IMG/VR virus record: IMGVR_UViG_3300021957_000042
Location: 1-58,459 of that record
DNA length: 58,459 bases
Reading direction: 5' to 3' (one strand)
Source: a virus
Every line of letters begins with the position of its first letter. Position 1 is the stretch's first letter. Positions 26,165-58,459 of the stretch are shown here, one piece after another. Under the pieces are notes generated by a model. That model searched no databases. It was not told the origin of the DNA and saw only the letters and a list, made by a program, of their open reading frames with translations. A program made the position numbers and the translations under genes.

Positions 26165-26192
26165 TTGACATTCCTGACCAGTCTGTTAAGAT
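26165..26192 (+). promoter_or_regulatory. early promoter cassette copy 5 (diverged -10)
   Basis: TTGACA (26165-26170), 16 bp, TAAGAT (26187-26192), then CTGATCAT. The left half of the palindrome is altered. TTTTTCGAAAAAAG lies upstream as in copy 4. Confidence 0.75.
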
Positions 26193-26241
26193 CTGATCAT
26201 GTTGAGTGATTGATTAATAACACACACAATGAGGAGCCACT

Positions 26242-27237
26242 ATGGCACTAAAAAGAGTTACCCTTGAGCAGTTCAGCACCGCTATCATCAACCACTACGG
26301 TCGTGAAATCATGAACCGTACCGAAATCAATAGCTTCGCCGCATCTGCCGGTTACTCTCGTCCAAACGGCTGGGATACTGACCAAATTGCCAGAGGCAAA
26401 TACCGCTTCAGCAAGACATCCGCAGCCAAAATCGGTCGTGTAAAGATTGATTATGATAACTTGAGTGATGATTCTCAAGAAGTCTTTGAAGACCTTGCGA
26501 TGTTGACTCGAGCTGTTGCTGCAAAAGCAATCAATTCTGTAATCGTAACCGGCTCAGCCGGCGTCGGCAAAACACATACTGTGACCGATGAGTTGAACCG
26601 CCGTGGTCTTCGCAAAGACCATGACTACGTTATTCTCAAAAGTAAGACTAGCCCACTCGGTTTGTACATGACCTTGTTCTTGCATCAAGACAAAATCATC
26701 ATTTTTGATGATATGGATGATGCGCTCAAGAACGATGATTGTGCCAGCATCCTGAAAGCGGCACTTGACTCCTACGAAGATCGTGAAATCTCCTGGAGTT
26801 CGAAGCGTATGGTAAATGTTGTTGGCGCTACGCCAGATACTCGCCGTCAAGTTGAGAGTGATGCCCGTGATGCTCTGCGCAATGGCGAAACTGATGTACA
26901 ATTGCCAAATCGCTTTATGTTCAAAGGCAATGTTATCTTCATCTCCAACTTGTCTTCTGACAAGTTCGACAAGGCAGTAATGTCTCGTAGTATGAAGATT
27001 GACTTGACCATGAGTGACAAGCAAGTGTTTGCTCGTATGAAGACCATCGTGCAGAAGCTGAAAGGCATCTCACCAAACCTTGCTCGTCGAGCAATGTCTG
27101 TCATCATTGATGACTACAATACCGGCAAAGGTGATGTGCCTAACATGCGCACCGTCATCAACTACGCCAAAGTGCTTTCTGCTCCCGGTGTGACCAATGA
27201 TCCTCGCAAACTCGAGCGATTGTCAAAATACTGCTGA
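26242..27237 (+). CDS. AAA+/P-loop ATPase
   Basis: A 331-aa protein. Walker A is GSAGVGKTH near residues 104-112, Walker B IIIFDDMDD near 152-160, sensor-1 VIFISNLSSD near 232, and an arginine-finger region NRFMF/SRSMKID. The N-terminal 60 residues form a separate domain, perhaps helix-turn-helix. It resembles small AAA+ replication or DNA-remodelling ATPases, but no specific partner is known. Its codon use is richer in C-ending codons than that of the late genes nearby. It is followed by a strong terminator. Confidence 0.75.
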   Translation: MALKRVTLEQFSTAIINHYGREIMNRTEINSFAASAGYSRPNGWDTDQIARGKYRFSKTSAAKIGRVKIDYDNLSDDSQEVFEDLAMLTRAVAAKAINSVIVTGSAGVGKTHTVTDELNRRGLRKDHDYVILKSKTSPLGLYMTLFLHQDKIIIFDDMDDALKNDDCASILKAALDSYEDREISWSSKRMVNVVGATPDTRRQVESDARDALRNGETDVQLPNRFMFKGNVIFISNLSSDKFDKAVMSRSMKIDLTMSDKQVFARMKTIVQKLKGISPNLARRAMSVIIDDYNTGKGDVPNMRTVINYAKVLSAPGVTNDPRKLERLSKYC

Positions 27238-29974: not shown

Positions 29975-30127
29975 ATGAAATACTCAATTTTGATTTTTTT
30001 TAGTCTTTTTATTTTTGGCTGTGGTTTAATACCTGAAGATGAACGTTATCACTCTAACGAGAGTATTAACAGTGATGATAATGCATCTGTGAACAACCGA
30101 GAGGTATTGGCAATCTTTCGAAAATAG
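29975..30127 (+). CDS. 50-aa lipoprotein
   Basis: Residues 1-16 form a lipoprotein signal with lipobox IFGC (Cys 16), followed by a 34-residue polar mature peptide (GLIPEDERYHSNES...). Its size is like that of an Rz1-type outer-membrane spanin, but no Rz-like partner overlaps it. It ends next to promoter 30131. Confidence 0.6.
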   Translation: MKYSILIFFSLFIFGCGLIPEDERYHSNESINSDDNASVNNREVLAIFRK

Positions 30128-35717: not shown

Positions 35718-36236
35718 ATGAAAAAATTCATCATTTCAATTGCAGCACTGTTTGTGATTTCAACACCAGTTTTTGCAGATAGCCATGAAGGTGGATATGA
35801 GGTGCCGTGTATACAATGTGAAGAAAAAGAAGAAGCACCAAAAGGATTATCAGATCTAAAACCAGAATTACTTAAAGAAGAAGAATTAGCATTTGATGCA
35901 TCAAAACTTTCACCAGAAGGTTTCCCAAAAGTTCCATATCCCACAGCAATGATTGGACAATTCATGACCTTTTGTGTGAACATCATGAATCAGAGGTTCT
36001 ATCAGGAGAGGTTACCCCAGCAAGTTGCCTATGCCTCTTCTGCATTTATCTGTTCTTGTGTGATGGATAGTTATCGTGATAAAAATCAACAAGCAGAATT
36101 TCAATATGAGTTTACTCGAAAAACTGCTAAAGAAGTTCCTTTGTTTACAGACTATCTAAAAACTTGTACAACATTGAATAATAAAAATTTGTCAGCATTT
36201 TTTCCAAATAATTCTAGAACACAATTTAACCAATAA
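35718..36236 (+). CDS. secreted Cys-containing protein
   Basis: A 172-aa protein with a classic Sec signal peptide, MKKFIISIAALFVISTPVFA, cleaved after AFA at residue 20. The mature part has seven Cys residues, including CIQC and CSC, so disulfides are likely in the periplasm. No family recognised. It is late-type by its promoter. It may be an envelope factor or a virion-associated exported protein. Confidence 0.75.
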   Translation: MKKFIISIAALFVISTPVFADSHEGGYEVPCIQCEEKEEAPKGLSDLKPELLKEEELAFDASKLSPEGFPKVPYPTAMIGQFMTFCVNIMNQRFYQERLPQQVAYASSAFICSCVMDSYRDKNQQAEFQYEFTRKTAKEVPLFTDYLKTCTTLNNKNLSAFFPNNSRTQFNQ

Positions 36237-39699: not shown

Positions 39700-40797
39700 T
39701 CATCCTAGGTCAAAAAGAATACTATCTGTAGGAAGTTCAAATAAAGTTCTCGGATAAACTTTATAGATCTTTTTACCCGCCTTTGTACTGCTTGCAGCTT
39801 CGATTTTATAACGCATTTGAATCAAAGGTTTATTATTAGTTGTTTCACGAATAATAATTGTTGGATCACCCTCGACTTTTGCGTGTGCTGTGAAATTAAA
39901 CTTACGAATATTTTTTTCAAATTTCTTTTCAAACCTTAAAGATTGTGCTTTCTTTTTATCAATCTTTACAAATTCAATATACTGATGTTCATCTTTTGTC
40001 ATGTGTTTACGAATAAATTTAATCAAATGTTCGACAAGGTCAATTTCACCAGAAGTTGATAACTGATTTATTTTGCTTACAATTTTTGTAAACATTGGTT
40101 TAATTGCATTACGAAGCATACTCTTTTGTTTTTCAAGTTGTGGATCTGCTCTTGTTTCATATTCAATCTTCTCATTAAAGTCACCAATATTTCGAATAAA
40201 CTCTGATTTTAATGAAGCAATATCAATATCAAATCCTTCTCGCCATAATGTATGTTGTTTATCAAATGACACACCACTAACCTGACCGAACTGTTCACCA
40301 CCTTTAGTCTTCAATGAAATTTGATTCTTTGATCGTTTACCATCAAAGACAAGTGCAATATCAACTTTTGTACCTTTTTGATCTTTTGTACCTTCACCTT
40401 TGACTTCAATCTTATTTTTTTTATTGTTCATATAATAAACTTTTGCCTGCAAGTTTAATCGGCGAGTTGTATTCACATACTCAATGCAGGCGTCAAAGAT
40501 ATCAGAAAATTGAGGCCAGTTTTTCTTTGAAGATAGATAAGTAGTTGCCTTTTGAGGTATGCTAATATCTAATTCAATAGTATCAACTGTAACATTATCT
40601 CGATCTTTTCTTGTTTCAGTTTTTTTATGTTGAATCATGATACGGTCTAACGCTTTTTCAACATCACTTTTTGAAACTTTTTGTTCTGGTTTCACCAAGA
40701 ATCTTGCTGCAAGTGCTGATGCAAAGATTGCTTCAGCAACATCACCACGATTATATTCAGGCGACTCTAATAGAAACGTTTTAAAGTTTGTTATCAT
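39700..40797 (-). CDS. possible PD-(D/E)XK nuclease with capsid-targeting N-terminus
   Basis: A 365-aa protein beginning MITNFKTFLLESPEYNRGD, where FLLE|S fits a head-protease cleavage site. GDVAEAIFASALAARF (18-33) with Glu22, GTKVDIALVFDGKR (about 142-155, Asp146) and QISLKTKGG (159-167, S-x-K) follow the helix-Glu, Asp, x-Lys order of restriction-like nucleases, although the usual ExK Glu is Ser. The following FGQVSGVSF adds to the resemblance. If packed in the head it would be injected with the DNA. The nuclease assignment is tentative. Confidence 0.55.
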   Translation of the reverse strand: MITNFKTFLLESPEYNRGDVAEAIFASALAARFLVKPEQKVSKSDVEKALDRIMIQHKKTETRKDRDNVTVDTIELDISIPQKATTYLSSKKNWPQFSDIFDACIEYVNTTRRLNLQAKVYYMNNKKNKIEVKGEGTKDQKGTKVDIALVFDGKRSKNQISLKTKGGEQFGQVSGVSFDKQHTLWREGFDIDIASLKSEFIRNIGDFNEKIEYETRADPQLEKQKSMLRNAIKPMFTKIVSKINQLSTSGEIDLVEHLIKFIRKHMTKDEHQYIEFVKIDKKKAQSLRFEKKFEKNIRKFNFTAHAKVEGDPTIIIRETTNNKPLIQMRYKIEAASSTKAGKKIYKVYPRTLFELPTDSILFDLG

Positions 40798-40832: not shown

Positions 40833-40880
40833 TTACCAGGCTTCTTCTATATATACTCGGAATTCTTTAAATGTTTTCAT
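40833..40880 (-). CDS. 15-codon ORF encoding only a capsid-targeting-like peptide
   Basis: The peptide MKTFKEFRVYIEEAW carries MKTF-KEF and I-E-E|A, the targeting and cleavage pattern without a cargo. Its ATG overlaps the stop of the 529-aa gene (ATGA), so it may be translated by coupling. It may be a relic of a larger gene or a real peptide. Confidence 0.4.
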   Translation of the reverse strand: MKTFKEFRVYIEEAW

Positions 40881-42466
40881 GTGTCTTTTTGTGAATTAAC
40901 ATATTCTTGTCCCTCTTTTTCTGCTCGTTGTTTTGCGGCACGGAATGCTTGAATCACATTTTCATCTTGTTTGTTCCATTTGTTTTCATACATTCTTAGT
41001 GACTGTCGAATATCAAGCAATGGTGAACCTACACTCTTAGGATCACGATTTCCTTTCTGACGAACTAATTCTTCAAGACCAAAGATGATTGTTTCTGGTG
41101 TAATTTTGCATTCAGGCCCTTTTGATAGATAAACAGTTAAAGTATCAGGTTTTTCTTTGAGCGCAATTTTCATACAATTATTGATTACTTCTTTCATATG
41201 CCCTGTGCGGTAAAAGTCTCTGACTGTATGTGGTTCTAATTTTGCTAATATTTTCAGAACGTCTCCGCTCACTATAATACTTTGATTTCTTAGCTTCTCG
41301 AAGAAACGCCACAGACTAACACTCTCTTGTCCTTGAACGATATCACCGTTCTCAACCTTCTGAAGAAATTTAGCTTTACCTTCATCCGTTTTTTCTTCTT
41401 GGTATTTTACAATAGGTGGTTTTTTATCTTCATATGTTTTGTTCTCAATAATCTCAAGAACTTTGTATCCTCTTCTTGCCAAGAAAACTGCTTGAATTGG
41501 TTCTGCAGGATGAATCACTCTCTTACCACTTCGATCAGCAATTGAATCATAACCAATATTTGCCAATAAAACTGCCCAAGCATTTGCAAATGGATTTGTT
41601 TTGCCCTTTTCTTTCTTATCACCAGATGGTTCATAGATATGTGCGGCAGTCATCTCTGCTTTATCGCCTTTCATCTTTTGAACTTTAGTGAACACCTTGC
41701 TTAACAATTCAGCCGGAACTCTTTGTGGTTTATCAGGATCATAGTTTTGTTCAACATCTTCTTTTGAACCATAAATCCACCATGCTGACATTCTTGGCAT
41801 ATCTTCACCAATTCGGAAGTTTCTTTGATATGCTCCTTTTTCACCAGCAGTTACATTACTAGTAAGTGATTTCTTTTCATGAGCCAAAGCAACTAATGCT
41901 GAACACAATCTTGATGCATTCCAGAATTGCATTCCTGGTAGATCATTTGATGCTCGAGTAAATGCATAACGAATTGTGGCACAAACGATCAAGAAAATTA
42001 AATGCTCATTCTTGACATTCAAAATCTTCATCAGTTTTTGAGTGGTATATTTTGCAATCTTTTCAGTATCACCAGCAAGTTTAGCATTTGAATATTCACC
42101 AGAACCAACATCGTCAATATAATTTTTACCTTTACGCTGAAGTACAGCAATCTTTGGCATATGACCAGCAAATGGCACATTGAATCTTTTCCAACCTTTT
42201 CCTGGAACATAGTGGTGAAACACTTCAACCATCGGATAGGTATAGATACCATTTGGTGTATTATATCTTGACTTTGTATTCAGACCTACTTGAGCAGCAT
42301 TGTAATCATCTTTACCTGTTTCAGTAAAGTCCTTTGCATTTGTAATAAAAGTAATAAAGATATCATCATTATCTTTATATTTCTCTAATGCTTGCACAGG
42401 AAACTGCTTCACATTCTGTTCGGGATTACGTCTAGCCTCGGTAATAAAACTACGAAAAGATTTCAT
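40877..42466 (-). CDS. large capsid-targeted protein, possible ADP-ribosyltransferase-like fold
   Basis: A 529-aa protein beginning MKSFRSFITEARR, where FITE|A is the T4-type capsid-targeting and cleavage pattern. GIYTYP at 73-78 and GYDSIADRSGKRVIHPAEPI (305-324) followed by QAVFL recall the first and last strands of some ADP-ribosyltransferase-like domains in phage polyvalent proteins. T4 Alt, an injected ADP-ribosyltransferase, is the known precedent. No R-S-E triad could be confirmed, so the fold is a hypothesis. The gene runs opposite to its neighbours. Confidence 0.55.
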   Translation of the reverse strand: MKSFRSFITEARRNPEQNVKQFPVQALEKYKDNDDIFITFITNAKDFTETGKDDYNAAQVGLNTKSRYNTPNGIYTYPMVEVFHHYVPGKGWKRFNVPFAGHMPKIAVLQRKGKNYIDDVGSGEYSNAKLAGDTEKIAKYTTQKLMKILNVKNEHLIFLIVCATIRYAFTRASNDLPGMQFWNASRLCSALVALAHEKKSLTSNVTAGEKGAYQRNFRIGEDMPRMSAWWIYGSKEDVEQNYDPDKPQRVPAELLSKVFTKVQKMKGDKAEMTAAHIYEPSGDKKEKGKTNPFANAWAVLLANIGYDSIADRSGKRVIHPAEPIQAVFLARRGYKVLEIIENKTYEDKKPPIVKYQEEKTDEGKAKFLQKVENGDIVQGQESVSLWRFFEKLRNQSIIVSGDVLKILAKLEPHTVRDFYRTGHMKEVINNCMKIALKEKPDTLTVYLSKGPECKITPETIIFGLEELVRQKGNRDPKSVGSPLLDIRQSLRMYENKWNKQDENVIQAFRAAKQRAEKEGQEYVNSQKDT

Positions 42467-44176: not shown

Positions 44177-45562
44177 ATGAAAGCTTTTCACGAATTTCTA
44201 CTTGAAGGTATTAAAAAAGAACAAATCAATCGAGTGTTCGCAAACAAAGATTTTAAGATTGGTCTTGAATTTGAATTTTATAATGAAGATTTTGTACGAG
44301 AAAATAATCGTCCATCAACAAAAGAAGTATTAGTCATGGCTGATTATGTTGAACTAATTAATGAAACCAAAAAACAAAATGTTAAGATTGTCATGAAGAA
44401 TAAAACTTCAAAGGCATCTCCGAATCGAAAGATTATAACACCTGAACAAATTATGGATGATTTCTCAAAAGCTAACCGCTCAGTTTTGTTTGGCTTTTTT
44501 AAAAGAAATGGTATTAATGAAAAAGAATTGGTTGAATTAACATACCGATATATTAATTCTGCATTAGAAAAATCAGAAAAATATATGGCTCATGGTGATT
44601 TTCGAAGAGACATCTTTGAAAAATATGCAGGTGAGAACAAAGTCCTGCAGCAATATATGAATGTGATCATCAAGGCAGTTCAAACAGAAGGTGCTGATAT
44701 TGACAAAGAGATTTTAAAATACTATAAAAAAGACAATGCAATTCCTTCTTTCATACGAGATTACAAAGTAATTGTGAAAGGTAAGAATTCTGATCCGACT
44801 AAGTGGACAATTCTACCAGACTTATCTGTTCTTTCAACTTTAGGTGGTATTGAATTTGTTTCACCAGTTATGACGCCAGAACAAACCTTGAAAGCAACTG
44901 ATGAAATGTTCAAGTATATTCGTAAAGTCGGTAACACACAATCTCACCATACAGAAGATCAAGATGGTAAAGGTGGTGATAAACGAAATGCTCAATGCGG
45001 ACTACATATCAATATCTCAACAACACCTGAAAGAATGAAAGAGTTTGATCCTGTAAAGTTTATCATCTATTCAAATGAAGGACAATTTAATTCTGAAAAG
45101 CTTTTTGGTGATCGTAAAGATGCCGATTATATTGGTAGTGTTCTGTCTGACTTGAGAAAACATTATAAAAGAAAAGTTGGTATGTTAAGTGGTGGTGATG
45201 ACCAGGCATATGTTAATACACTTATAAAAAATAAAATGTTTCATGGTGTCAAATATCTACAAAGCTTAACTCGTTTTATCAATGACAAATATTCAAACGT
45301 GAATCTACAGAACTATTCATTTGATAATGCTTCAAAGAGAAGATCGAAATCAGAACGAATTGAAGTTCGTTATTTTGGTGGTCAGGATTATGAAAAGAAG
45401 TTTGAAACTTTTCGTAGAGTTTTGGGTGAATTATTATATGCACTTGAAGTCGCAACTGATCCAGAGTTGAATAAAAATGATTATCAAAAGAAACTATATA
45501 AGTTATTATCAAGTGGCGCAGACGATAAACCAAAACTATCACTCACGAAAAATAAAAAATAA
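44177..45562 (+). CDS. amidoligase with capsid-targeting N-terminus
   Basis: A 461-aa enzyme. It begins MKAFHEFLLEGIKK, with FLLE|G as a head-protease site. The amidoligase motifs are GLEFEF (29-34), DLSV...GGIEFVSP (215-230), CGLHINI (274-280) with the His pair, and RIEVRYFGG near 390. These match the GCS-fold amidoligase superfamily (ATP-dependent amide bond formation). The combination suggests an enzyme packed inside the head and injected at infection. The substrate is unknown. A shorter relative lacking the targeting peptide lies at 6270. Confidence 0.75.
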   Translation: MKAFHEFLLEGIKKEQINRVFANKDFKIGLEFEFYNEDFVRENNRPSTKEVLVMADYVELINETKKQNVKIVMKNKTSKASPNRKIITPEQIMDDFSKANRSVLFGFFKRNGINEKELVELTYRYINSALEKSEKYMAHGDFRRDIFEKYAGENKVLQQYMNVIIKAVQTEGADIDKEILKYYKKDNAIPSFIRDYKVIVKGKNSDPTKWTILPDLSVLSTLGGIEFVSPVMTPEQTLKATDEMFKYIRKVGNTQSHHTEDQDGKGGDKRNAQCGLHINISTTPERMKEFDPVKFIIYSNEGQFNSEKLFGDRKDADYIGSVLSDLRKHYKRKVGMLSGGDDQAYVNTLIKNKMFHGVKYLQSLTRFINDKYSNVNLQNYSFDNASKRRSKSERIEVRYFGGQDYEKKFETFRRVLGELLYALEVATDPELNKNDYQKKLYKLLSSGADDKPKLSLTKNKK

Positions 45563-45844: not shown

Positions 45845-46276
45845 ATGAACAAATACGTTATTGGATTGTTGCTTATGTTTGCGGCACAATGCCATGCTGT
45901 ACCGCAAACATATGCATCAACAGATGCTTTTGATTATATTGAATATGTTTCCTGTTATGATGGTGATACATGTAAATTTAATATAGCAAATCTTCCCGAT
46001 GTCTTTGGGCAAAAATTGCCCGTCCGCTTACGAGGTATTGATACACCAGAGATTCGTGGAAAATGTAATAAAGAGAAAGAGTTAGCTTATAAAGCAAGAG
46101 ATTTTATTCGATTTTTGCTAAATAAAGCAGAAACAATTGAGCTTCGAAATATATCGAGGGGGAAATATTTTCGCATAGTTGCCGACATATATGCTGATAA
46201 TAAAAATGTATCTGAAATAATGTTATTTAATGGACATGCAAGGCTTTATGAAAGTAAAATCGATTGGTGTTCTTAG
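45845..46276 (+). CDS. secreted thermonuclease (staphylococcal-nuclease-like)
   Basis: A 143-aa nuclease with a signal peptide, residues 1-18 (MNKYVIGLLLMFAAQCHA). The SNase fold shows YDGDTCKF (Asp ligand), PVRLRGIDTPEIRG (the Arg35, Asp40, Thr41 and Glu43 equivalents) and GKYFRIVADIY (the Arg87 equivalent). All catalytic positions are present, so a calcium-dependent DNase/RNase active outside the cytoplasm is predicted. It opens the exported-protein run. Confidence 0.87.
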   Translation: MNKYVIGLLLMFAAQCHAVPQTYASTDAFDYIEYVSCYDGDTCKFNIANLPDVFGQKLPVRLRGIDTPEIRGKCNKEKELAYKARDFIRFLLNKAETIELRNISRGKYFRIVADIYADNKNVSEIMLFNGHARLYESKIDWCS

Positions 46277-46955
46277 TGTTTTAGTTCTGTTTCTCAATGG
46301 ATGTTTATCGGGATTTCTAAGACCAGATGATGTAAGTTTAGACCAGAGAGCCTGGTTTGGTTGGGGAGAAGCGTCCGGTGTTTATCAAGAAGACAAATAT
46401 CAAATTGATGAAGGAACAAAAGGTATCACATACGAAGGTATGTATGAATATCAGGTAGATACACAAAAAAGTTCTTTTGAAAGAACAAGAGGTGTCTCAT
46501 TATTGAAAACTGATTTTATTGATACCTACGATGGTGCGGATGGTTCAACTCATAAAAATAATCTCACAATTCTTCATCCATTCACATATCATATTGGTTA
46601 CGGTAGAGGATATAAACTTTTCGACGAAACAAAATTTATAGTTTCTGGTGACCTCTTCGGTGGACTTGGTCTTGATGTTTTCAGCGGAGAAAAATCTTTT
46701 TCTGATGGTAGAGTAGATGAATATCCTCAAACATTTGGTCTTGACCTATTATATGGTATCGGTCTTCTCACGATCCTAGAAATTGAAGATGGATTAACAA
46801 TAGGCTGGCATCGTATGAATATGCAAAATAAAGTTCGTATGGATTTTGGAAATGATGCCGGATTTCTCACTCAATATAATTCAACTGTATTTTTCATTGG
46901 TTGGAAATATTCAGGTAAGTCGTGCATTGATACGGCTTATGTCAAATGCGACTAA
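46248..46955 (+). CDS. outer-membrane-like lipoprotein
   Basis: A 235-aa protein with a lipoprotein signal ending FLNG-C (Cys 19 in the chosen start). The mature part has repeated aromatic and Gly-rich strands (GYGRGYKLFDE, SGDLFGGLGLD, LLYGIGLLTI) and ends in IGWKYSGKS, which recalls outer-membrane beta-barrels. It overlaps the end of the nuclease gene by 29 bases. An earlier in-frame ATG at 46230 is less suitable because it would precede the signal with acidic residues. Confidence 0.7.
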   Translation: MKVKSIGVLSVLVLFLNGCLSGFLRPDDVSLDQRAWFGWGEASGVYQEDKYQIDEGTKGITYEGMYEYQVDTQKSSFERTRGVSLLKTDFIDTYDGADGSTHKNNLTILHPFTYHIGYGRGYKLFDETKFIVSGDLFGGLGLDVFSGEKSFSDGRVDEYPQTFGLDLLYGIGLLTILEIEDGLTIGWHRMNMQNKVRMDFGNDAGFLTQYNSTVFFIGWKYSGKSCIDTAYVKCD

Positions 46956-46972
46956 TATCATTAAATATTTTT

Positions 46973-47104
46973 ATGTTAGCAATTATAGCTTTTATAGTAG
47001 CAGTTCTTTTTATTACAGATGCAAAGGATGAACAAACCGCTTATGATCGAAAAGTTCAAATTCAAAAAGAGTATAATACTGATCGGAATTCTAAGTATCC
47101 TTAG
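46973..47104 (+). CDS. small membrane peptide overlapping the next gene
   Basis: A 43-aa ORF, MLAIIAFIVAVLFIT followed by a charged tail (DAKDEQTAYDRKVQIQKEYN). The membrane segment and charged tail resemble a small inner-membrane spanin or signal-anchored peptide. It overlaps the following exported-protein gene in another frame, as spanin genes often do. Confidence 0.45.
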   Translation: MLAIIAFIVAVLFITDAKDEQTAYDRKVQIQKEYNTDRNSKYP

Positions 47105-47513
47105 TTTTGCTCCAACAATTGCAAATAGTTCTTCTCATACAAGAATTGAATTACCAAAACTTCGGTTTGAAACATGTTTGCTTTATCCTGTTTGTTCTTT
47201 TTATATTTTAGATGAAAGTAAAAAGAGGGCAGCGATATCTGGATTTCATCATAATAAAATTGTAATACGAATTGAACCACTTGTACATATGTCTTATTTA
47301 CGACAATGTACAAAAGAGACTTTAGGTATTGGTGATTTTCGACAAGTTATATGGATTGACTTTGCAAAAAAAATGATGGAAGCTGAAAGTATTTCGGCAA
47401 GAGGTAAAAAATTTCGTGGTATGTTATTGGGTGATGTAATCATCGACAGTCATCGTTCACAAGATGTTGTGATTCGTTTAATTGCCGATTTTTGCTCTGC
47501 TGGAGGTGTTTAA
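47043..47513 (+). CDS. exported unknown protein
   Basis: A 156-aa protein with a signal segment (IILIGILSILSFAPTIANS) after a basic n-region. The mature part has five Cys residues. Starts at 47019 and 47028 are also possible; the ATG at 47043 gives the most typical signal peptide. No family recognised. It sits between two lipoprotein genes. Confidence 0.65.
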   Translation: MIEKFKFKKSIILIGILSILSFAPTIANSSSHTRIELPKLRFETCLLYPVCSFYILDESKKRAAISGFHHNKIVIRIEPLVHMSYLRQCTKETLGIGDFRQVIWIDFAKKMMEAESISARGKKFRGMLLGDVIIDSHRSQDVVIRLIADFCSAGGV

Positions 47514-47540
47514 TTTTGAAATTTTAAGAGCAGCTATTTT

Positions 47541-50500
47541 ATGAAGTATTTTTATATTTTATTCTTATCAATTATATCATTTACATTCACCAGTTGTGAA
47601 ATCTGTATCGGCCCAGTATGTGAGGGTCGAATTATCTATGATGACATTGAACTACCAAAAGATGATAATAGTGATTCCGGTGGTGGTTCCGGTAGTTCTG
47701 CGCCAGATCCTGTAACAGATTTATCTGCAACCTCACCTTATTCAAATCAAGTTGATCTCAGTTGGACTGCAATCACAGGTTCTGATAATTATACAATTCA
47801 TTTCAGTACAGATAATTCATCCTTTAGTGCAATAGTTCCTGATGTCACAGGAACTACCTACTCACATACTGGTAGAACCGCATCGACAACTTACTACTAT
47901 TATGTTATAGCAAACAATTCAACCGGTCCAAGTACACAATCAAACACGGCAAGTATCACTACCTCAGGCGCTCCAACTGTTACACTTACCGCAACTGCAT
48001 CCGTTGCTGAAGGAAATTCAGGCACAAAAAGTCAAACAATTACCGCAACACAAAGTGCCACATCAACTACAAACACAACAGTCAATCTCTCCACCTCAGG
48101 TACTGCTTCTGATAATGGCACTGACTACACCTTAGATAATTCAACAATTCTCATTACCGCAGGCTCGACAACAGGTACAACTTCTGTTACAATTGTTGGT
48201 GACCGTATTCAAGAAAACAATGAAACAATTGTTGTTGATATCGATAATGTTACTGGTGGTGATAACGCCACTGAAAGTGGTACACAACAAGAAACAATTA
48301 CGATCACAAATGATGACATTGCGGGCTTCAGTTTCACCATTTCAACAAACAACACGGTCACTGAATCAGGAGCAGGTGATAGTTTTGATGTTGAACTTGA
48401 TACAGAACCCACAGCAAATGTGACGGTCACAATTACCGATAATGATAGTAGTGAGATTTTAGTTTCACCTACCACACTTGTCTTCAGTTCTGGTAATTAT
48501 AGCACAGCACAAACGATCAATCTAACAGCAGTTGAAGATAATGCAACTGATGGTAATCAAACTGTAACAATCACGTTGGCTGGTAGTTCTGTTGATAGTT
48601 TTTACAATGGTGCTGCCGCACAAACAATAGCAACAGTGGTGGATTCAGGTAATGAACCACCAAGTGTTCCTGTTTCGAACTTATCAGCAACTGCTGTTTC
48701 AACAACACAAATTGATCTCAGTTGGTCGGCAAGTGCCAATACAGATAACTATACAGTTTACTTTAGCACAGACAATTCATCCTTCAGTGCGATTTCACCA
48801 GTAGTCACTAGTACATCTTATTCACATACAGGAATAACGCCAGGAACTACTTACTATTATTATCTGATTTCAAACAATGCTTATGGAGTGAGTGGTCAAT
48901 CAAATCGTGCCAATGATACAACGACCAGCATTCTTGTTGACTTATCAGCAGATATCACTTCAGTCACAGAAGGAGATACTGGTTCACAGACAATCACACT
49001 TACAGCAACTCAAAGCCAAACTGCTACAACAAATACCACTGTCACTTTGTCAGCTTCGACTGCTCCGGCTGATGCTGCTATATCAACGGGAACGGCAAAC
49101 ATTGATAAAGATTATGCTTTTGTTTCATCCACAATTACAATTACTGCCGGTTCTCTTACAGGCACAACTACTCTAAATGTATATGGTGATTATCTTGATG
49201 AAGATAATGAAACCATTTATATAAACATGTCAGGTGTTAGTGGTGGTGATGGTGCCTCAGAGAATGGAACACAAACGGCAAACATTTCAATTGTTGATGA
49301 TGATAATACAGAATTCAAATATAGCATTTTAGGAGGTGATAGTGTTGCTACAGAAGGCGGTTCTGGTATCACTTATTATATCACTTTGAATTTATATCTT
49401 GATTCAAGACCAGATGGAAATGTTTTAGTTGATTTCAGTTTAGAAGATTCAACACAACTCAGTTTGTTGGATGGACCAACATTGACGTTTACACCATCAA
49501 ATCATATGAACACACAAGTTGTTCGTGTTGCTGCTGTTGATGATCTATATGATGATGGTAACGTAACTTCGAAAGTTTATATTGATCCCAATGGCGGTAC
49601 TGCCGACACAACTGGCTACGCAAGTTTGTCACAGAAAAGTAAAAATATCACAGCAGAAGATAATGATGCGCCAGGTCCTGTGCTTGATAATGTCACCGCA
49701 GGCATTCAACAAAACTATATTTCTTGGCAAGCATTTGCTGGTGAAGATGGTGGCTATCGTTTGTATTATCGTACAACAGATGATCAACACACAGGTTCAG
49801 ATAGTTATATTACGATTGGTACAGGCATCACAGAATACTATCATAGCGGACTTGATAGTGGCCTAACCTATTATTATCGTGTAACTGCTTTTGTTTCTGC
49901 CGCAGAATCTTCAATGTCAAATTCTCTAAATGGTGTACCAACAACACCTTGGCCTGGTTGTACATCAACAGGACCTTCTGCTTCACCTTCAGATCCAACA
50001 CTTGAAGTTCATTATCCCTTTGAAAACAATGGTGAAGATTTGCTTGATAAAAATGCGAACAATGTGTATGACCTGACAAATGTTCATCCATCAAATACAA
50101 CTTTCAATTATGTTGCTGGTTGTGCTGGTGGTAAGGCACTCTATATTGATAGCACATCAGGTATTTACGCAACCAGTGCGTTTACAAGTTCAGCAGTTGG
50201 TGGGAATCTGAATTCTGGCAACTTCACAATTTCTTTCATGGCAGTTGCTGATGCGGATATGGAAACAAATAGTTCTGCTCTCAACACCGGATTCAAAGAC
50301 CTTCATTCACCTTTTGGAAGTTATGCTACAAAATCTCAATTTGATATTGGTAATTCAGATCAAATAAGATTTAGATCTCCTAGTTCAAACACGGGAGATC
50401 CTTCCGCACTAACTCAAAACACTTGGCATCATATTGTCGCAACATCAAATTCAGGACAAGATGCTGTTTTATATAAAGATGGTGTTGTAGTTGATTCGAC

Positions 50501-52172
50501 AAATACTGGAAATTTTGATGCTGATTTCTTTGGTTTAGCAATTGGTATAAACCGAGATGAAGGTTGGACAAATCGTTTCTGGAAAGGATACATTGATGAT
50601 GTCCGTGTTTATTCAGAAACAAAGTCTGTTGACCAAGTTCGAACCATTTGTATGGAATATGATGGCTGTTCATACATACCAGAAACACCAACACTCACCG
50701 CAACGGCAAGAGCAAGTTCAATCTACCTGTCTTGGAATTTGCCAACTGGAGCAGATAATGTTACAATCTATTGGCGAGAAAGTACTGGCTTTGAAGGTTC
50801 ACCAACCGCACCAACAGCAAGTAATAATGTGATCAATGCTGTTGATAATCAAACATCTTACTTTCTGGCGAACTTAGACGTTACAAATTATCATCATTTT
50901 GTCATTCTTGCAAACAATCGAAATGGTAGCAGTAGTCCAAGCTCAGTAGCAGCAACAGCAAATGTACAACCACTCAATGCTCGTTTTCGATCAACTTCGA
51001 TCAATGGTAACACTTTAGTATACATCAATCGAGATAATGAACTTTGGGTGCGAGGAAACAACTGGTCACCTTCTGAGGGCGGAAATGCTGAAATTTATTT
51101 CTCTCCAAGGAATAGCAATTTTGGTGAGCAAAATTCAGTTCATGCAGATAGTATTTCAAATGCTTCAGTGGTCGGTGCTGGTTCAAATAAGATTTCTGCT
51201 CTTTTAGATAATGGTAGTGTTTATCATTTTCACACAAATAATTCTTCCTTGTTCTGGGATAGTTATAATACTGAGACCACACCTACAAACATACCAGGTG
51301 GCACAACCATTGTTGATATGAGACATAGTTTAAAAGCAGTTTATTATTTGCTAAGTGACGGCACGATTCTTGCGAAAGGCAGAAATCATGTAGGTCAACT
51401 TGGAAATGGTACAACTACAGATGAAACTGGTTCAACAGGTGTGTTTGTTTCCGGGATCAATACAGCAACTCAAATTGCCGTTGGTATACAACATGCCTGT
51501 GCGTTGTTGTCGAATGGACAAGTATGGTGTTGGGGTGATGGAGATAAAGGTGAGCTTGGAGATGGATTAGATAGAGATTCTTCAACGCCTGTTCAAGTTT
51601 CTTTGCCTACGAATACTGCTACAATGATTGATGGTACTTATAATGATACATTTGCCTTGATGTCTGATGGGACTGTTTACGGTTGGGGCGAAAATCGTTC
51701 GGGTAAAATCAAGTGTTCAACCGATAATTCTCAAGTTCTCTCACCTGAACGTGTGTCTGGTCTATCAAACATAATTGATATTGCCGTTGGATATGAAACC
51801 GTTCATCTGTTAGAAGACGATGATAATGATGGACGTGGAACTCTGTACACCTGCGGTCGTGCCAACAAGAATTATGACCAAACTAACAATGCTGCCTTTC
51901 GTTTCTGGAATGATAATAATGGGGACATCAACTATATCTCCAGTTATAACGGTGTCGGAAACGCCATCAAAGCTGACGAATATAATAATCGTTTGATTCA
52001 GATTGATGGAGATCGATATTCACTTCTTCTAATTAGGGATGACCTCACACTGATGGGTATCGGTCAGTCACAACACAAGCAATTTTCTATCACTGATAAT
52101 AATGGCGCCAATCGAATGGTGATTTTTGATGATAATTTGCAACCGATTGAAAGTACAAATCCTATCGATTAG
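47541..52172 (+). CDS. giant multidomain lipoprotein A (Calx-beta, FN3, LamG, RCC1)
   Basis: A 1543-aa surface-type lipoprotein. The signal ends FTFTS-C (Cys 19). Domains by eye: FN3 (55-143), Calx-beta-like repeats (about 144-258, 259-370), FN3 (371-462), Calx-beta-like repeats (463-592, 593-712), FN3 (713-808), LamG/concanavalin-like (810-1048; TWHHIVATSNS, WKGYIDDVRVYS), FN3 (1050-1148) and RCC1-type repeats to the end (WCWGDGDKGELGDG). Such adhesion and ligand-binding modules are unusual on a phage lipoprotein. It has a paralogue next door. It might decorate the infected cell surface. Confidence 0.85.
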   Translation: MKYFYILFLSIISFTFTSCEICIGPVCEGRIIYDDIELPKDDNSDSGGGSGSSAPDPVTDLSATSPYSNQVDLSWTAITGSDNYTIHFSTDNSSFSAIVPDVTGTTYSHTGRTASTTYYYYVIANNSTGPSTQSNTASITTSGAPTVTLTATASVAEGNSGTKSQTITATQSATSTTNTTVNLSTSGTASDNGTDYTLDNSTILITAGSTTGTTSVTIVGDRIQENNETIVVDIDNVTGGDNATESGTQQETITITNDDIAGFSFTISTNNTVTESGAGDSFDVELDTEPTANVTVTITDNDSSEILVSPTTLVFSSGNYSTAQTINLTAVEDNATDGNQTVTITLAGSSVDSFYNGAAAQTIATVVDSGNEPPSVPVSNLSATAVSTTQIDLSWSASANTDNYTVYFSTDNSSFSAISPVVTSTSYSHTGITPGTTYYYYLISNNAYGVSGQSNRANDTTTSILVDLSADITSVTEGDTGSQTITLTATQSQTATTNTTVTLSASTAPADAAISTGTANIDKDYAFVSSTITITAGSLTGTTTLNVYGDYLDEDNETIYINMSGVSGGDGASENGTQTANISIVDDDNTEFKYSILGGDSVATEGGSGITYYITLNLYLDSRPDGNVLVDFSLEDSTQLSLLDGPTLTFTPSNHMNTQVVRVAAVDDLYDDGNVTSKVYIDPNGGTADTTGYASLSQKSKNITAEDNDAPGPVLDNVTAGIQQNYISWQAFAGEDGGYRLYYRTTDDQHTGSDSYITIGTGITEYYHSGLDSGLTYYYRVTAFVSAAESSMSNSLNGVPTTPWPGCTSTGPSASPSDPTLEVHYPFENNGEDLLDKNANNVYDLTNVHPSNTTFNYVAGCAGGKALYIDSTSGIYATSAFTSSAVGGNLNSGNFTISFMAVADADMETNSSALNTGFKDLHSPFGSYATKSQFDIGNSDQIRFRSPSSNTGDPSALTQNTWHHIVATSNSGQDAVLYKDGVVVDSTNTGNFDADFFGLAIGINRDEGWTNRFWKGYIDDVRVYSETKSVDQVRTICMEYDGCSYIPETPTLTATARASSIYLSWNLPTGADNVTIYWRESTGFEGSPTAPTASNNVINAVDNQTSYFLANLDVTNYHHFVILANNRNGSSSPSSVAATANVQPLNARFRSTSINGNTLVYINRDNELWVRGNNWSPSEGGNAEIYFSPRNSNFGEQNSVHADSISNASVVGAGSNKISALLDNGSVYHFHTNNSSLFWDSYNTETTPTNIPGGTTIVDMRHSLKAVYYLLSDGTILAKGRNHVGQLGNGTTTDETGSTGVFVSGINTATQIAVGIQHACALLSNGQVWCWGDGDKGELGDGLDRDSSTPVQVSLPTNTATMIDGTYNDTFALMSDGTVYGWGENRSGKIKCSTDNSQVLSPERVSGLSNIIDIAVGYETVHLLEDDDNDGRGTLYTCGRANKNYDQTNNAAFRFWNDNNGDINYISSYNGVGNAIKADEYNNRLIQIDGDRYSLLLIRDDLTLMGIGQSQHKQFSITDNNGANRMVIFDDNLQPIESTNPID

Positions 52173-52175
52173 TTA

Positions 52176-52204
52176 TTGACATCTTATTGAATTTATGTTA
52201 CAAT
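52176..52204 (+). promoter_or_regulatory. sigma70-type promoter for giant lipoprotein B
   Basis: TTGACA (52176-52181), 17 bp, TACAAT (52199-52204), in the 116-base gap between the two giant genes. It gives the second gene an early-type promoter of its own. Confidence 0.82.
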
Positions 52205-52288
52205 ATTGAAACGAACAGGGAATATTTTACCCACTAACTAAATATGGGTATGACCTACTTTCACAAATTCATTCAATAGAGGTAACGC

Positions 52289-55200
52289 ATGAGAAGCTTG
52301 ATTGTTCTACTTTCACTCATTATGATCTCCTTTTCATTTATTAGTTGTGACCAACTTCCTGAAGAAGGTACTATTATCTATGACGTAGATTTTCCAAGAG
52401 CGGATTCTTGTGAAGCAACGGGAACTTGTAATTCTGGCGGTGGTGGCGGTGGTGGCGGTACTTATGTACCTCCTGTAATCACACCAGGAATCCCGAGTGT
52501 ACCATCAGGCGTCACAGTTGTCAATCCTACATTCACCGAAACAGAAGGAAACACACATACAGGAACAACAATAGTTCTTGATTCTGCTCCTTCAGGAACA
52601 GTGACAATCAGTTTTACTTCTGGTGATACCTCTGAAATTACAGTCAATAGTCCTTCATTGACATTCACTCCTGCCAATTACAGCACACCTCAAGTAATTG
52701 TCATGACTGCGGTAGAAGACTTCATCAACATTCCCACCGATTCAAATACAACTACTGGCATTGCCTTTAGTATCTCATCAACAAATACATCAGACCTCGT
52801 TCATGGAAGAATTGGAAATTTAGTAGGTTATGTTTTAGATTCAGGCAGAACACTCTTCACAATTGGCGGAGGAACACCAACAATACCTGAAGGTCAAAGT
52901 GATAATTCATCTTATACGTTTGTTCTGAATGATATGCCGAATGGTGTGGTCACCGTCACTCTTACTTCGACAGATACAAACGAAGTTCTCATAGGTTCGC
53001 CATTGGTTTTTACACCAGGGTCGTACAATGTTCCGCAGAATCTTTCCCTGACTGGAGTGGAGGATTACATAGTCGATGGACTTCAAGACACGAATATTAC
53101 AGTGACTTATACCAGTACCGACCCTACGGACATCCAAGATGGTGAAACAAATACTTTTATAGTCAATACAACAGATAGTGGTCAAAGTAGTGTTACTTTA
53201 GATGATGCGAATCCTTCTGTTGCTGAAGGTAGTTCTTATACAGGTACAATTGTTCTTGATGCGGCTCCAGCCGGAACAGTTACAATCACACTGACTTCTG
53301 ATGATGTAGGTGAAGCACAACTTGTACCAGATCCAACAGTCTTGACATTCACGCCCGTCAACTGGAATTCACCTCAGAATTATACTGTGAATGGTATTGA
53401 AGATTTAGAGATTGATGGTCCTGTTGAAACAAACATCAACATTGTGGCAAGTTCAACAGATCCAACAGATTCAATTCATGGCTTGAATACTTCGTTTACA
53501 ATGACCACAACTGATTCTGGCATTGATGGACCATACACAATCAATCCAACAACACCTTCAGTTACAGAAGGTACTACAGATAATATGACATTTGTTCTGA
53601 ATTATCCACCAACAGATACTGTAACAATCACGTTGACTTCAGGTGGCGCAGATGAAGCAGGTATTTCACCCACAACATTGACATTCACACCTGTCAATTG
53701 GAATTCACCTCAAACAGTGATTGTAACAGGTGTTGAAGATTTTGTAGTTGATAATGATCAATTAACTGCAATCACAACAACAATTTCTTCGAATGATTCA
53801 GTTTACGATAATTCAACAGGCTATTTCAATATCACAACAGTAGATAGTGGAAGAGGTCCTACTTCTATCACAAGTGCTGTAGCGGGAGATCAACAAGTCA
53901 CGCTCAACTGGAGTGGTCCAACTGGAATGGATGGCTATGTAATTTATTATACAAATGATGGTTCAACACCAACACTCGCAAGTGATAATGTTTCAGGTAT
54001 TTCTGGTACAGTCACATCTTATGTTCATAGTGGCCTGACCTCTGGCTTGACATACACTTATCGAATTGTTGCCAATTTAGGTTCTGATTCTTCTGGTCTT
54101 TCACCAACAGTCTCGGCAAATCTAAAACCAGCAACTCCTACTGGGCTGACTGCAACAAACCCTGGCAGTGGCACATCCATCAATCTGACTTGGAATGCTT
54201 CCACTGGTGCTGACAACTACACCGTTTACTGGACTGATGATCCAAGCACACCAATCGATCCATCCAATCCTGCTACTTATGATGGCTCCACTACTGTCAC
54301 GGGAACCTCTACAACTGCTACAGGCTTGACAGCCGGAACGCCTTATGACTTCACAATAGTTGCCACAAATAACACTGCTGGCAGTAGTCCTCCTGCTACT
54401 GAAGTCAATGCCACCCCGACTCTGATAATGCCAGCAGCCATCGATAATGTGACTGCCTATCACGGATTCTATGGTGATGCGACAATCTACACGGCTAGTA
54501 ACCCAGATAGATATTCTATTTTCCCTCCTTCATATGCCATAACATGGAATGCTCACCCTGACTTTGTTTATTCTGCCAATGGAGATTATTACAAAGTTTT
54601 TATCTCAGATAATTTGAGTCAACCCATTGATCCAACAGACAGTAGCACTTATATCAGTCAACAATGGGCTACAACGAATCAAACGGTTATTACAACTCGC
54701 CCCTTCATCACAATCGATGGCGTCACTCATAATGATGGCTTCTTGGAGAATACACCTCTAAGAATTGCTGTGGTTTTTGAGGATTATTCAAAAGGACGCA
54801 TTCTATCACCAGTAACAGAGGTCACACCAACAATGGCTTCTGAAGCCTATCGTCAATGGGGTGACCTAAGAATTCATGGTGGCTTCTTTGCGGCTGGTGA
54901 TAACAGCACACTCTATGGCTTTGGACGTTCTAATGGTAGTGACCCTATTCGCATTGAACACAAAGATATGGTCAATGTAGGTGAACGAGCAATCTTTGAT
55001 GGTGCTTGGCTCAACAGTGATGTCTTTCCCCTGATGAGTAATTCTGCTGGCTATGATTATATGTTTTTGACTTGGTACCAACCCGAAAAACCATTTTTTA
55101 ACCACAACTTCTCTACTAACGGAACATACTTTAAGAGATCCCGCACCTCTGATTGGCGGCTTGAATCAAACGCAATTTCAGCAGGTAGCGCAGTGGGAGA

Positions 55201-58120
55201 TTACGATTTCGGAATGGAGTTTCAAGCAGAAGATACGGTAGGACTGATCATTCAGCACAGTAGTAATCGCACAGGAACATTGAATGGCCCAACAGACTAT
55301 GCTGCTGTTAGTTATGCAGATTATGCTGCTGGCAATGGGCTATATTCAGCAGAGCATACAGGTACTTCACACTGGTTAGACAATTCTTCGTATGCTGGGA
55401 TGACGTTGTTCTCAACCAAAAACATGTATCAAATCAATCTTGCCAATGCGGATGCTGCAATCTCAAAAGTGGCGATTCCGTTTAAAAGTCCAGATAATCT
55501 GACAGTCACTCCATCTGGATCAAACATCAATCTCAGTTGGGATAACTCGACTTCTTTCACGAACACTTATGACATCTATCGAAGCACAGACAACAGCACA
55601 TGGAGCTTAGTCACTAGCATTAGTGGATATACAAACACTACTTATACAGACTCTTCTCTAGCTGATGGCACTTACTACTATAAGATTGGAGCGAATGGAA
55701 CTTACTTTACCCCAGACAATTCAACAGTAGCTTCGGGCGTGATTTCTACTACTCCGGCAGCCCCTGTTCTCAATTCTGTCACTGCCGGTGTTCAACAGAA
55801 CACAATTGCTTGGAGTGCTTACACGGGAGCAACTAGTTACAAGTTATACTGGGATACTTCAGCATCTGTATCAACAAGTGATAATCTGATCACCATTAGT
55901 GATAACACTTCAACCAGTTATATTCATTCTGGTAGAACAGCAGGTACTCAGTACTACTATAGACTAATTGCGACAACTTCTGGAGGAGATTCAGGACTTT
56001 CAAATGAACTGAGTGATACACCAACTGCTCTTGTTGGATGTACAAGTTCAGGTGCTGTAGCAGATAATGATCCTGACTTGTTAGTGCATTATGCTTTTGA
56101 AGGAAACTTAGAAGATGTTGAGGATACTAACGGTGATAATCGCTATGACCTGACAAATGAAGAAGGAACAATGCAATTTGCTCAAGGTTGTGCCCAGGGT
56201 CAGGCTGCTTATATTGATTCTGCTTCTGGATATGGAGTGAATAATAACTTCACAAGTACAAATGTTGGTGGAAATTTAGCAAATGACAACTTCAGTATCT
56301 CACTATGGGTAGCGAAAGACGGAGATATGGCAGACTATTCTTCTGCATTCAATACTGGCTTTTACAATGAACACACACCAACAGGAGATCAAGAAAAAAC
56401 TCAAATTGATATTCAGGCAGGTAAGTTTCGAGCAATCTCAAATAGTCCCGGTAATGGTAAAAAGGTTAGATCATCCTTCACACCAAATATGGACCAGTGG
56501 TATCATGTTACACTCACTCATAGTCCACCAAGCACTGTTTCATTATATACTGATGGTACCCTACAAGAAACCAACACGAATATGAATATAGATTTCTACG
56601 GTTTGGTTGTTGGTTTGAATCGAAGCAGAAGTGTAGGAACACTCAACTGGAAAGGATATATAGATGAAGTCAAGGTCTTCAACAGAACCTTTAGTGCGGA
56701 TGATGTTGCTGATGATTGTATGAAATCTGAAGGTTGTCCTTATGTTCCAGCAACAGCACCGACACTCTCAGCAGACGCAAGGGCTCAGGCAATCATGTTG
56801 ACTTGGAATTTGCCCGGTGGAACAGACAACGCAACCATCTATTGGAGAACAAGTGGTGGTTCGTTTGAAGGATCACCAACAGCACCTACAGCCAGTGATA
56901 ATGTGATCAATGTGACAAATGGTCAGACAAGTTACTTGCTGACTGGCTTGACTGGTGGTGATTACTATCACTTTGTGATTTTGGCAAATAATCGAAATGG
57001 TAGCAGTCCTGTCAGTTCTGTATTGGGCAATGTTCAGCCGACAAGTTTTATTGCTAACACCTTTGATTCTGGAAACAACGGAGGTATCTGTAAAATTCAA
57101 AATGATGGCAGTCTAAAATGCAAAGGCCGCAACAACTTAGATCAGTTCAATAATGACAGGATTGACCGACCAAGTGCCACTGACATTTTTGGTATCACGA
57201 ATGCGGAGACTATCACATTCTCTTCAAATAAGATTGGTGTTGTTCAGTCAGATGGGAGCTACCAGCATCGTGGAGACAATGATGGTATGAGTACACGCTC
57301 AAGTCCAGTAACTGGTGTGACGAATCCAGTGCAAGTGGAGCATGGATATAATTTTGTGGCTTACTTGATGAGTGATGGGACAGTCCGCACAAGAGGTGCT
57401 AATTACAATGGACAACTGGGTGATGGCACAACCAACAATGAAACTTCTGGTTCCGTTCAAGTCAGTGGAATCACCACAGCAAATAAGATTTCTGCAGGAC
57501 AGTATCATGCTTGTGCGCTCTTGACGAATGGTCAGATCTGGTGTTGGGGTGATAATTCATTTGGTGAGTTAGGGGATGGAACAACAACACAAAGAGAAAC
57601 TCCTGTTCAAGCAGGATTACCGACAGATACTGCTGTTGGTATTTTTGTAAGCCAAAGAACATCTGCGGCTGTTCTAGCTAACGGCAAGGTCTACATTTGG
57701 GGTTCTAATGTTAACAGCAGAGCAAAGTGCAGTAACAATACAAGTGCCATTTCAAATCCAAGAGAACTCACTGTTATTTCAAATGTGAAGCAGATTGATT
57801 TCGGATTTGGTCACTCTGTAATTCTTACAAATGATGGCAATGTCTATACATGCGGCACAGTCTACTCCACATCAAATGTAGCTGGAAATGCCACTTTCTT
57901 TGCAAGCATGGGTACTGAGGCAAAGACAAATGGAGCTATTCTGATGGATGATTATCAAGGCAGAGTGATTGAAGTCCGAGCAGACAACTACAATTCATAT
58001 ATGTTATTGGATAACGGAAGTCTTGCTTGTATCGGAGACAACAATTACGGGCAATGTAATAACGATGGTGCAACGATGGGAACAGATCAGCTAACACCAA
58101 TCATTATTCCTGATATGTAA
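52289..58120 (+). CDS. giant multidomain lipoprotein B (four tandem Calx-beta-like, FN3, LamG, RCC1)
   Basis: A 1943-aa lipoprotein with Cys 20 (FSFIS-C) followed by Asp at +2, which in enterobacteria retains lipoproteins in the inner membrane. A Gly-rich linker (residues 50-60) leads to four ~113-aa Calx-beta-like repeats (about 72-527), two FN3 domains, an unassigned region (about 715-1065), FN3 modules, a LamG-like domain (about 1250-1485; KGYIDEVKVF), FN3, and RCC1 repeats from about 1585 (WCWGDNSFGELGDG). It shares the N-terminal motif EGTIIYD-x-D-F-P with lipoprotein A (EGRIIYDDIELP). Confidence 0.85.
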   Translation: MRSLIVLLSLIMISFSFISCDQLPEEGTIIYDVDFPRADSCEATGTCNSGGGGGGGGTYVPPVITPGIPSVPSGVTVVNPTFTETEGNTHTGTTIVLDSAPSGTVTISFTSGDTSEITVNSPSLTFTPANYSTPQVIVMTAVEDFINIPTDSNTTTGIAFSISSTNTSDLVHGRIGNLVGYVLDSGRTLFTIGGGTPTIPEGQSDNSSYTFVLNDMPNGVVTVTLTSTDTNEVLIGSPLVFTPGSYNVPQNLSLTGVEDYIVDGLQDTNITVTYTSTDPTDIQDGETNTFIVNTTDSGQSSVTLDDANPSVAEGSSYTGTIVLDAAPAGTVTITLTSDDVGEAQLVPDPTVLTFTPVNWNSPQNYTVNGIEDLEIDGPVETNINIVASSTDPTDSIHGLNTSFTMTTTDSGIDGPYTINPTTPSVTEGTTDNMTFVLNYPPTDTVTITLTSGGADEAGISPTTLTFTPVNWNSPQTVIVTGVEDFVVDNDQLTAITTTISSNDSVYDNSTGYFNITTVDSGRGPTSITSAVAGDQQVTLNWSGPTGMDGYVIYYTNDGSTPTLASDNVSGISGTVTSYVHSGLTSGLTYTYRIVANLGSDSSGLSPTVSANLKPATPTGLTATNPGSGTSINLTWNASTGADNYTVYWTDDPSTPIDPSNPATYDGSTTVTGTSTTATGLTAGTPYDFTIVATNNTAGSSPPATEVNATPTLIMPAAIDNVTAYHGFYGDATIYTASNPDRYSIFPPSYAITWNAHPDFVYSANGDYYKVFISDNLSQPIDPTDSSTYISQQWATTNQTVITTRPFITIDGVTHNDGFLENTPLRIAVVFEDYSKGRILSPVTEVTPTMASEAYRQWGDLRIHGGFFAAGDNSTLYGFGRSNGSDPIRIEHKDMVNVGERAIFDGAWLNSDVFPLMSNSAGYDYMFLTWYQPEKPFFNHNFSTNGTYFKRSRTSDWRLESNAISAGSAVGDYDFGMEFQAEDTVGLIIQHSSNRTGTLNGPTDYAAVSYADYAAGNGLYSAEHTGTSHWLDNSSYAGMTLFSTKNMYQINLANADAAISKVAIPFKSPDNLTVTPSGSNINLSWDNSTSFTNTYDIYRSTDNSTWSLVTSISGYTNTTYTDSSLADGTYYYKIGANGTYFTPDNSTVASGVISTTPAAPVLNSVTAGVQQNTIAWSAYTGATSYKLYWDTSASVSTSDNLITISDNTSTSYIHSGRTAGTQYYYRLIATTSGGDSGLSNELSDTPTALVGCTSSGAVADNDPDLLVHYAFEGNLEDVEDTNGDNRYDLTNEEGTMQFAQGCAQGQAAYIDSASGYGVNNNFTSTNVGGNLANDNFSISLWVAKDGDMADYSSAFNTGFYNEHTPTGDQEKTQIDIQAGKFRAISNSPGNGKKVRSSFTPNMDQWYHVTLTHSPPSTVSLYTDGTLQETNTNMNIDFYGLVVGLNRSRSVGTLNWKGYIDEVKVFNRTFSADDVADDCMKSEGCPYVPATAPTLSADARAQAIMLTWNLPGGTDNATIYWRTSGGSFEGSPTAPTASDNVINVTNGQTSYLLTGLTGGDYYHFVILANNRNGSSPVSSVLGNVQPTSFIANTFDSGNNGGICKIQNDGSLKCKGRNNLDQFNNDRIDRPSATDIFGITNAETITFSSNKIGVVQSDGSYQHRGDNDGMSTRSSPVTGVTNPVQVEHGYNFVAYLMSDGTVRTRGANYNGQLGDGTTNNETSGSVQVSGITTANKISAGQYHACALLTNGQIWCWGDNSFGELGDGTTTQRETPVQAGLPTDTAVGIFVSQRTSAAVLANGKVYIWGSNVNSRAKCSNNTSAISNPRELTVISNVKQIDFGFGHSVILTNDGNVYTCGTVYSTSNVAGNATFFASMGTEAKTNGAILMDDYQGRVIEVRADNYNSYMLLDNGSLACIGDNNYGQCNNDGATMGTDQLTPIIIPDM
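52500..53870 (+). repeat. four tandem Calx-beta-like coding repeats
   Basis: Four units of roughly 340 bases each encode FTP-x-N/S-x-x-x-P-Q-x... and GVED motifs. Units 3 and 4 share a near-identical 35-base DNA stretch (53342-53376 and 53678-53712) with only three synonymous differences, so duplication or conversion is recent. Confidence 0.75.
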
Positions 58121-58164
58121 AACAAAAATTTATTATCTTATATTAATTATTCGAGGAGAGTAAG

Positions 58165-58459
58165 ATGAAAGTCCTGAAACTCTTATGTTTTTTAGCATTA
58201 TTATCATTTCTTGTTGGTTGTTTTGAATGTACAAATCCATTATCATTTGAAAAATGTGAAGAGGTGACATCAACAAGTTCAACAACAACATCATCTACAC
58301 CAACCACAGGTTACACATTCTCAGCAAGCTCAGTGAACGTGGCTGAGAATAGTGGTACTGGAACGTACACGGTGAAGCTGAATACAGCACCGACAGCCAC
58401 AGTCACCTTTGCGATCACATCAGATAACACTAGCCATATTACTGTCTCTCCGAGCAGTA
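58165..58459 (+). CDS. third lipoprotein of the same family, cut by the window edge
   Basis: An open frame to the right edge, 98 codons visible. The signal ends SFLVG-C (a strong lipobox), followed by a Ser/Thr-rich linker (TSTSSTTTSSTPTTG) and the start of a Calx-beta-like domain (SVNVAENSGTGTYTVKL). TCGAGGAGAG precedes the ATG. It repeats the lipoprotein-linker-Calx-beta plan of its two neighbours, so at least three paralogues stand in a row. Confidence 0.8.
   Translation, partial: MKVLKLLCFLALLSFLVGCFECTNPLSFEKCEEVTSTSSTTTSSTPTTGYTFSASSVNVAENSGTGTYTVKLNTAPTATVTFAITSDNTSHITVSPSS

Follow-up and report, generated by a model that had tools for sequence, protein, structure and literature searches.

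The genes closing the right end of the analyzed window, i.e. the whole 58,459-nucleotide stretch of the virus record IMGVR_UViG_3300021957_000042, probably represent a surface-display island that a T4-like phage would express during infection, as judged from their sequences. From position 45845 to the right edge, all seven genes were found to encode an export signal or a membrane anchor when the open reading frame listing was examined with simple signal rules, which bears out the first-pass annotation in its claim that every gene here encodes an exported protein. Lipoproteins were recognized by a signal peptide with a lipobox whose Cys lies at positions 15-35, using a strict PROSITE-type rule and a looser, relaxed variant. 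Three genes satisfied the strict rule and one the relaxed rule only, while two of the remaining products carry cleavable signal peptides and one is a membrane peptide. The genes occupy a single strand and are tightly packed or overlapping (Table 1). Elsewhere in the window, about four out of roughly 60 other genes have credible exported products. The hypergeometric chance of seven consecutive exported genes is approximately 4e-7 to 1e-6, as calculated from the simple rules and the open reading frame list, not from SignalP. The clustering had been called unusual, and it is indeed unusual in comparison with the phage's own sisters, which are without the island. A T4-type replication and recombination core is present, with gp47 homologues in 2447 phage records and the best among the matches listed, at 43-46%, being to cyanomyophage-type phages.

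Table 1. Genes of the export block and other exported-looking genes in the window.
Feature	Position	Strand	Basis
Endonuclease of the staphylococcal nuclease type, exported; core gene bordering the island on its left	45845..46276	+	PF00565, N-terminal signal peptide
235-aa predicted lipoprotein (longest ORF 241 aa, from 46230)	46248..46955	+	lipobox LNGC
52-aa membrane peptide (single transmembrane segment at the N-terminus) that overlaps both neighbors	46946..47104	+	ORF and transmembrane prediction
161-aa exported protein (longest ORF 164 aa, from 47019)	47028..47513	+	signal peptide, four Cys
Giant lipoprotein 1, 1543 aa, intact	47541..52172	+	strict lipobox FTSC, Cys19
Giant lipoprotein 2, 1943 aa, intact	52289..58120	+	strict lipobox FISC, Cys20
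Third lipoprotein of the same type, start only, cut by the contig end	58165..58459	+	strict lipobox LVGC, Cys19
Other exported-looking window genes	16111-16707, 21337-21537, 29975-30127, 35718-36236		simple signal rules

By employing PhoH as query, we found nine related viral contigs. In two of these (L006 and L007) a tail-fibre-type gene of roughly 1000 aa lies 184-187 bp past the nuclease, with baseplate genes on the opposite strand beyond it, and three more (L008, L009 and L014) are near-identical to this pair. The fibre gene is present also in L013, where the nuclease is missing. As nuclease and fibre lie within about 200 bp of each other in L006 and L007, the island occupies a defined site; by gene order, the lipoprotein genes are an island inserted at the nuclease/tail-fibre junction, with the nuclease belonging to the core. 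The nuclease was consequently rejected as an island member, being present also in sisters without the lipoprotein genes. The block from 45845 to the edge had been proposed as one unit; its exported nature held throughout, while its left border has to be moved past the nuclease, and on the right it runs beyond the window edge. The order of the window recurs in L011, i.e. nuclease, lipoprotein, exported protein and a giant lipoprotein of like type, at which that contig also ends. An assembly chimaera with bacterial DNA could thereby be ruled out, given this shared order, substitutions falling mainly at third codon positions and a phage-like synonymous composition.

The nuclease has the SNase fold (Pfam PF00565 above cut-off, E 6.6e-12), and an alignment to staphylococcal nuclease (1a2t) showed that the equivalents of R35, D40, E43, R87 and D21, taken as catalytic, are kept. 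Its orthologues in L006, L007 and L011 also have signal peptides. The LNGC lipobox of the following gene fails the strict rule due to the N at -2 but passes the relaxed one, and LNGC occurs also in the L011 orthologue, which is found at the same place and is 65% identical. This lipoprotein had no match in Pfam, PHROG, NCBIfam or PADLOC, nor did the 241-aa form in Bdellovibrionota genomes. Likewise, the 161-aa exported protein matched no known family; its orthologue at the same place in L011 is 73% identical and conserves the four Cys. AlphaFold models of the two proteins were too poor to interpret (pLDDT 33 and 46, respectively).

Giant lipoproteins 1 and 2 share a common plan, consisting of the lipobox, a short conserved EG-IIYD stretch, a Gly/Ser linker, fn3/Calx-beta-type units, a laminin-G-type lectin domain and an RCC1 propeller. 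RCC1 repeats were identified above the Pfam cut-off in both (PF00415 and PF13540), and lipoprotein 2 in addition gave structural matches to UVR8 and RCC1. The two are paralogues, with 42-45% identity over the C-terminal 800 aa, and the third lipoprotein shows local identities of 38-57% to them. Weak PHROG matches to tail-protein Ig domains were also found. Scans of viral contigs with parts of the giant lipoproteins gave L011 only, or no match. The best bacterial matches are only about 30-40% identical, mostly within RCC1, and the bacterial searches found no gene of the same architecture. Bacterial RCC1/fn3/Calx-beta surface lipoproteins nevertheless resemble them in domain types, and some of these have lipoboxes as well. 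In E. coli, an Asp at +2, as in lipoprotein 2, means retention in the inner membrane, but this sorting rule may not be that of the host.

Between the window and L011, nucleotide identity is 85% in a shared 385-aa block of lipoprotein 1, as opposed to about 72% for the flanking genes. The identity at 4-fold sites is 73% (n=188) in this block vs 37-61% in its neighbors, and stronger constraint is thus no explanation for the similarity. In addition, the L011 giant lipoprotein has two extra Calx-beta-type units before the shared block. A block more similar than its flanks, together with differing repeat numbers, shows in the alignments of this one pair (window and L011) that the giant lipoprotein genes recombine, with domains being both exchanged and multiplied between phages. 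Identities to L011 at the three codon positions are 0.88/0.92/0.74 in the lipoprotein 1 block, and 0.81/0.86/0.67 and 0.71/0.81/0.49 in the two small exported proteins, a pattern that is the signature of protein-level (purifying) selection on the block. The synonymous GC of the island genes is 0.22-0.26, near the phage's own 0.11-0.25, which argues that they are long resident. High GC as a mark of recent bacterial transfer was ruled out, since it is explained by a composition rich in Thr, Ser, Gly and Ala, with 4-fold GC near background.

Alignment of the fibre gene identified another four contigs (L054-L057), showing what appears, from gene order, to be the other end of the island. L054 opens within the end of an RCC1 protein, after which come a lipoprotein with a SOUL domain, a pair of PilZ proteins, a membrane cyclase of 710 aa, an exported protein on the opposite strand and the fibre gene. 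Two PilZ genes and a multi-TM class III adenylate-cyclase-type gene precede the tail fibre in all four contigs (L054:452-4191, L055:1-2127, L056:1-2890 and L057:235-3166), and in L054 the SOUL lipoprotein lies beside them. The c-di-GMP-binding motifs RxxxR and DxSxxG are found in the second of the PilZ proteins. The class III nucleotidyl cyclase domain of the 710-aa protein can be aligned to adenylyl cyclases, and two residues that we read as adenylate-specific are kept in it, namely the Lys of NKFIGD and the Asp of VIGDAVN. Its hydropathy indicates a signal segment and about six transmembrane segments, with a match to 7TMR-DISM that is sub-threshold only. The cyclases of annotated phages were found only with other N-terminal parts. 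In Bdellovibrionota genomes, relatives of the SOUL protein and the cyclase reach 45% and 43%, respectively, while lipoprotein 1 is matched in RCC1 only. Exported proteins are found in the window and the class III cyclase only on L054-L057, with none in the window. The 84 kb L057 contig has a gene content complementary to that of the window and L011. Judged by synteny with L006, which has nuclease and fibre side by side, the nuclease-side and fibre-side halves likely form one island; for the phage of the window this is inferred, as each contig carries one half. The pairs L011 and L057, and L012 and L054, were also considered as single genomes. This is plausible, as they come from the same metagenomes and have complementary content, but their divergence does not agree exactly (86-89% vs about 75%), and this is not claimed. 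Two further small lipoprotein-like genes (L093:3918-4292 and 4954-5559) were noted towards the distal end of contig L057.

The best-known examples of phages remodelling the cell surface are small exclusion lipoproteins, serotype conversion and, still without explanation, the pelagimyophage curli islands. The latter, found in pelagimyophages (e.g. HTVC008M) and in the Methylophilales phage Melnitz, combine curli (type VIII secretion) and adenylate cyclase genes near baseplate genes, and their suggested but unproven functions are sibling capture, superinfection defence, uptake and lysis control (PMC7029224, PMC9599517, PMC9004378). The resemblance to the present island lies in a T4-like phage with a variable region beside structural or baseplate genes, with a run of exported adhesive proteins, and may extend to a class III cyclase, which is here located on the related fibre-side contigs. 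In place of curlins, however, the window encodes lipoproteins composed of fn3, Calx-beta, laminin-G and RCC1 domains, and on the related contigs there are PilZ genes and a multi-TM cyclase that differs in its N-terminal build. CsgG (PF03783) was absent from the window and from eight related records, these being fragments, while control genomes were positive. With no CsgG in the nine records tested, the island is not a member of the phage curli family, despite the like position and logic. RCC1 propellers also occur in proteins of the phages S-SRM01, BUCT-ZZ01, Jenst and SCTP-2, several of them near adhesion or glycan genes, but those of the first three start without the signal peptide or lipobox that the giant lipoproteins have.

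If the block is a surface-display island, its products would be synthesized by the infected cell and exported by Sec-type signals, with four of them predicted to be lipidated. The giant lipoproteins would then be tethered by the lipidated Cys and the flexible Gly/Ser linker, and their domain order suggests an fn3/Calx-beta rod that projects the laminin-G lectin-like domain and the RCC1 propeller in an adhesin-like manner. Once displayed, they could serve to mask phage receptors or to attach to glycans or proteins of neighboring cells or particles, and recombination between phages would swap and multiply the binding units. The domain types are generic and point to no particular ligand. The suggestion of an envelope-directed programme is well supported by the signals, lipoboxes, adhesin-type domains, purifying selection and the L011 gene order. 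As to its purpose, attachment or adhesion is the best fit to the domains and to the nearest known parallel, and exclusion is possible, whereas none of the findings speaks to the predator avoidance also named in the first-pass annotation. Adhesion of infected cells, i.e. aggregation or retention near new hosts, is somewhat likelier than pure superinfection exclusion in the light of the domain types, the domain shuffling and the PilZ and adenylate cyclase genes on related contigs; the second messengers c-di-GMP and cAMP govern the switch between sessile and motile life in bacteria. More tentatively, the two half-islands might be a single module of shuffling lipid-anchored adhesins, the SOUL lipoprotein, two PilZ proteins and the multi-TM cyclase, in which adhesin display and cAMP/c-di-GMP signaling together would cause the infected cells to cling to one another or to surfaces.

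That the block serves superinfection exclusion only, with the lipoproteins masking or occluding receptors and the exported nuclease destroying incoming DNA in the periplasm, is unlikely, albeit the strongest of the rivals. Phage lipoproteins with such a role exist, e.g. Llp of T5 (PMC9586334), the adjoining nuclease seems to have an intact active site, and a gene at 29975 encodes another lipoprotein, which at 50 aa is similar in size to Llp. The likeness to Llp, also a phage-encoded lipoprotein predicted in the host envelope, is nevertheless limited to the lipid anchor: known exclusion lipoproteins are small, while the giant lipoproteins are about twenty times larger than Llp, multi-domain and arranged as tandem paralogues, so that lectin/propeller proteins of 1500-1900 aa far exceed what exclusion requires. 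Moreover, sisters carry the nuclease without the lipoproteins, and the two are therefore not one system; nor did the lipoproteins match PADLOC.

We consider it improbable that the giant proteins are virion components, i.e. fibres or tail decorations whose hydrophobic N-terminus serves assembly rather than export. Their position at the tail-fibre/baseplate junction, the location of other phages' RCC1 proteins near tail-fibre genes and the tail-protein Ig matches would fit such a role, but it leaves unaccounted for consecutive genes with three strict lipoboxes and one relaxed, a feature not shared by the signal-less RCC1 proteins of other phages. The phages of L054-L057 also keep their own fibre gene beyond the island-type genes, and the lipoproteins are thus no replacement for the fibre there. 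A weaker point is that the late-promoter-like motif [TG]ATAAATA is absent from the block, where about two matches are expected, while the sister fibre genes have it, or a one-base variant, close upstream. Least probable is passive cargo, in which bacterial surface genes acquired by chance drift without function. Bacteria commonly have RCC1 and fn3 lipoproteins, yet the frames of 4.6 and 5.8 kb have remained open, change is biased towards third positions, both genes and order are kept in a second phage (L011), and the synonymous GC speaks of long residence.

A surface-display island of this kind would add to the curli islands a second, non-homologous set of exported adhesive proteins, placed at a comparable site in T4-like phages, which suggests convergent selection for altering the surface of the doomed cell. 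It also offers a defined protein set with which adhesion and exclusion can be directly tested against each other.

Certain other window genes deserve mention. The 50-aa lipoprotein at 29975-30127 has a strict lipobox, is conserved in L011 and L012 (44%) and is a candidate exclusion protein. The exported, Cys-containing protein at 35718-36236 has a late-promoter-like site upstream and is conserved in all sister contigs covering the region. At 24154-27237 and 34080-35618, third-position GC is 0.45-0.50 vs about 0.22 for the phage; these genes are either recent acquisitions or have their GC maintained for another reason. Lastly, three proteins (44177-45562, 40877-42466 and 39700-40797) start with an MKxFxxFLxE(A/G)-like peptide, found also on proteins of sister contigs, which we take to resemble the sequence that targets internal head proteins of T4 to the capsid, and by this analogy the three may be packaged and injected.
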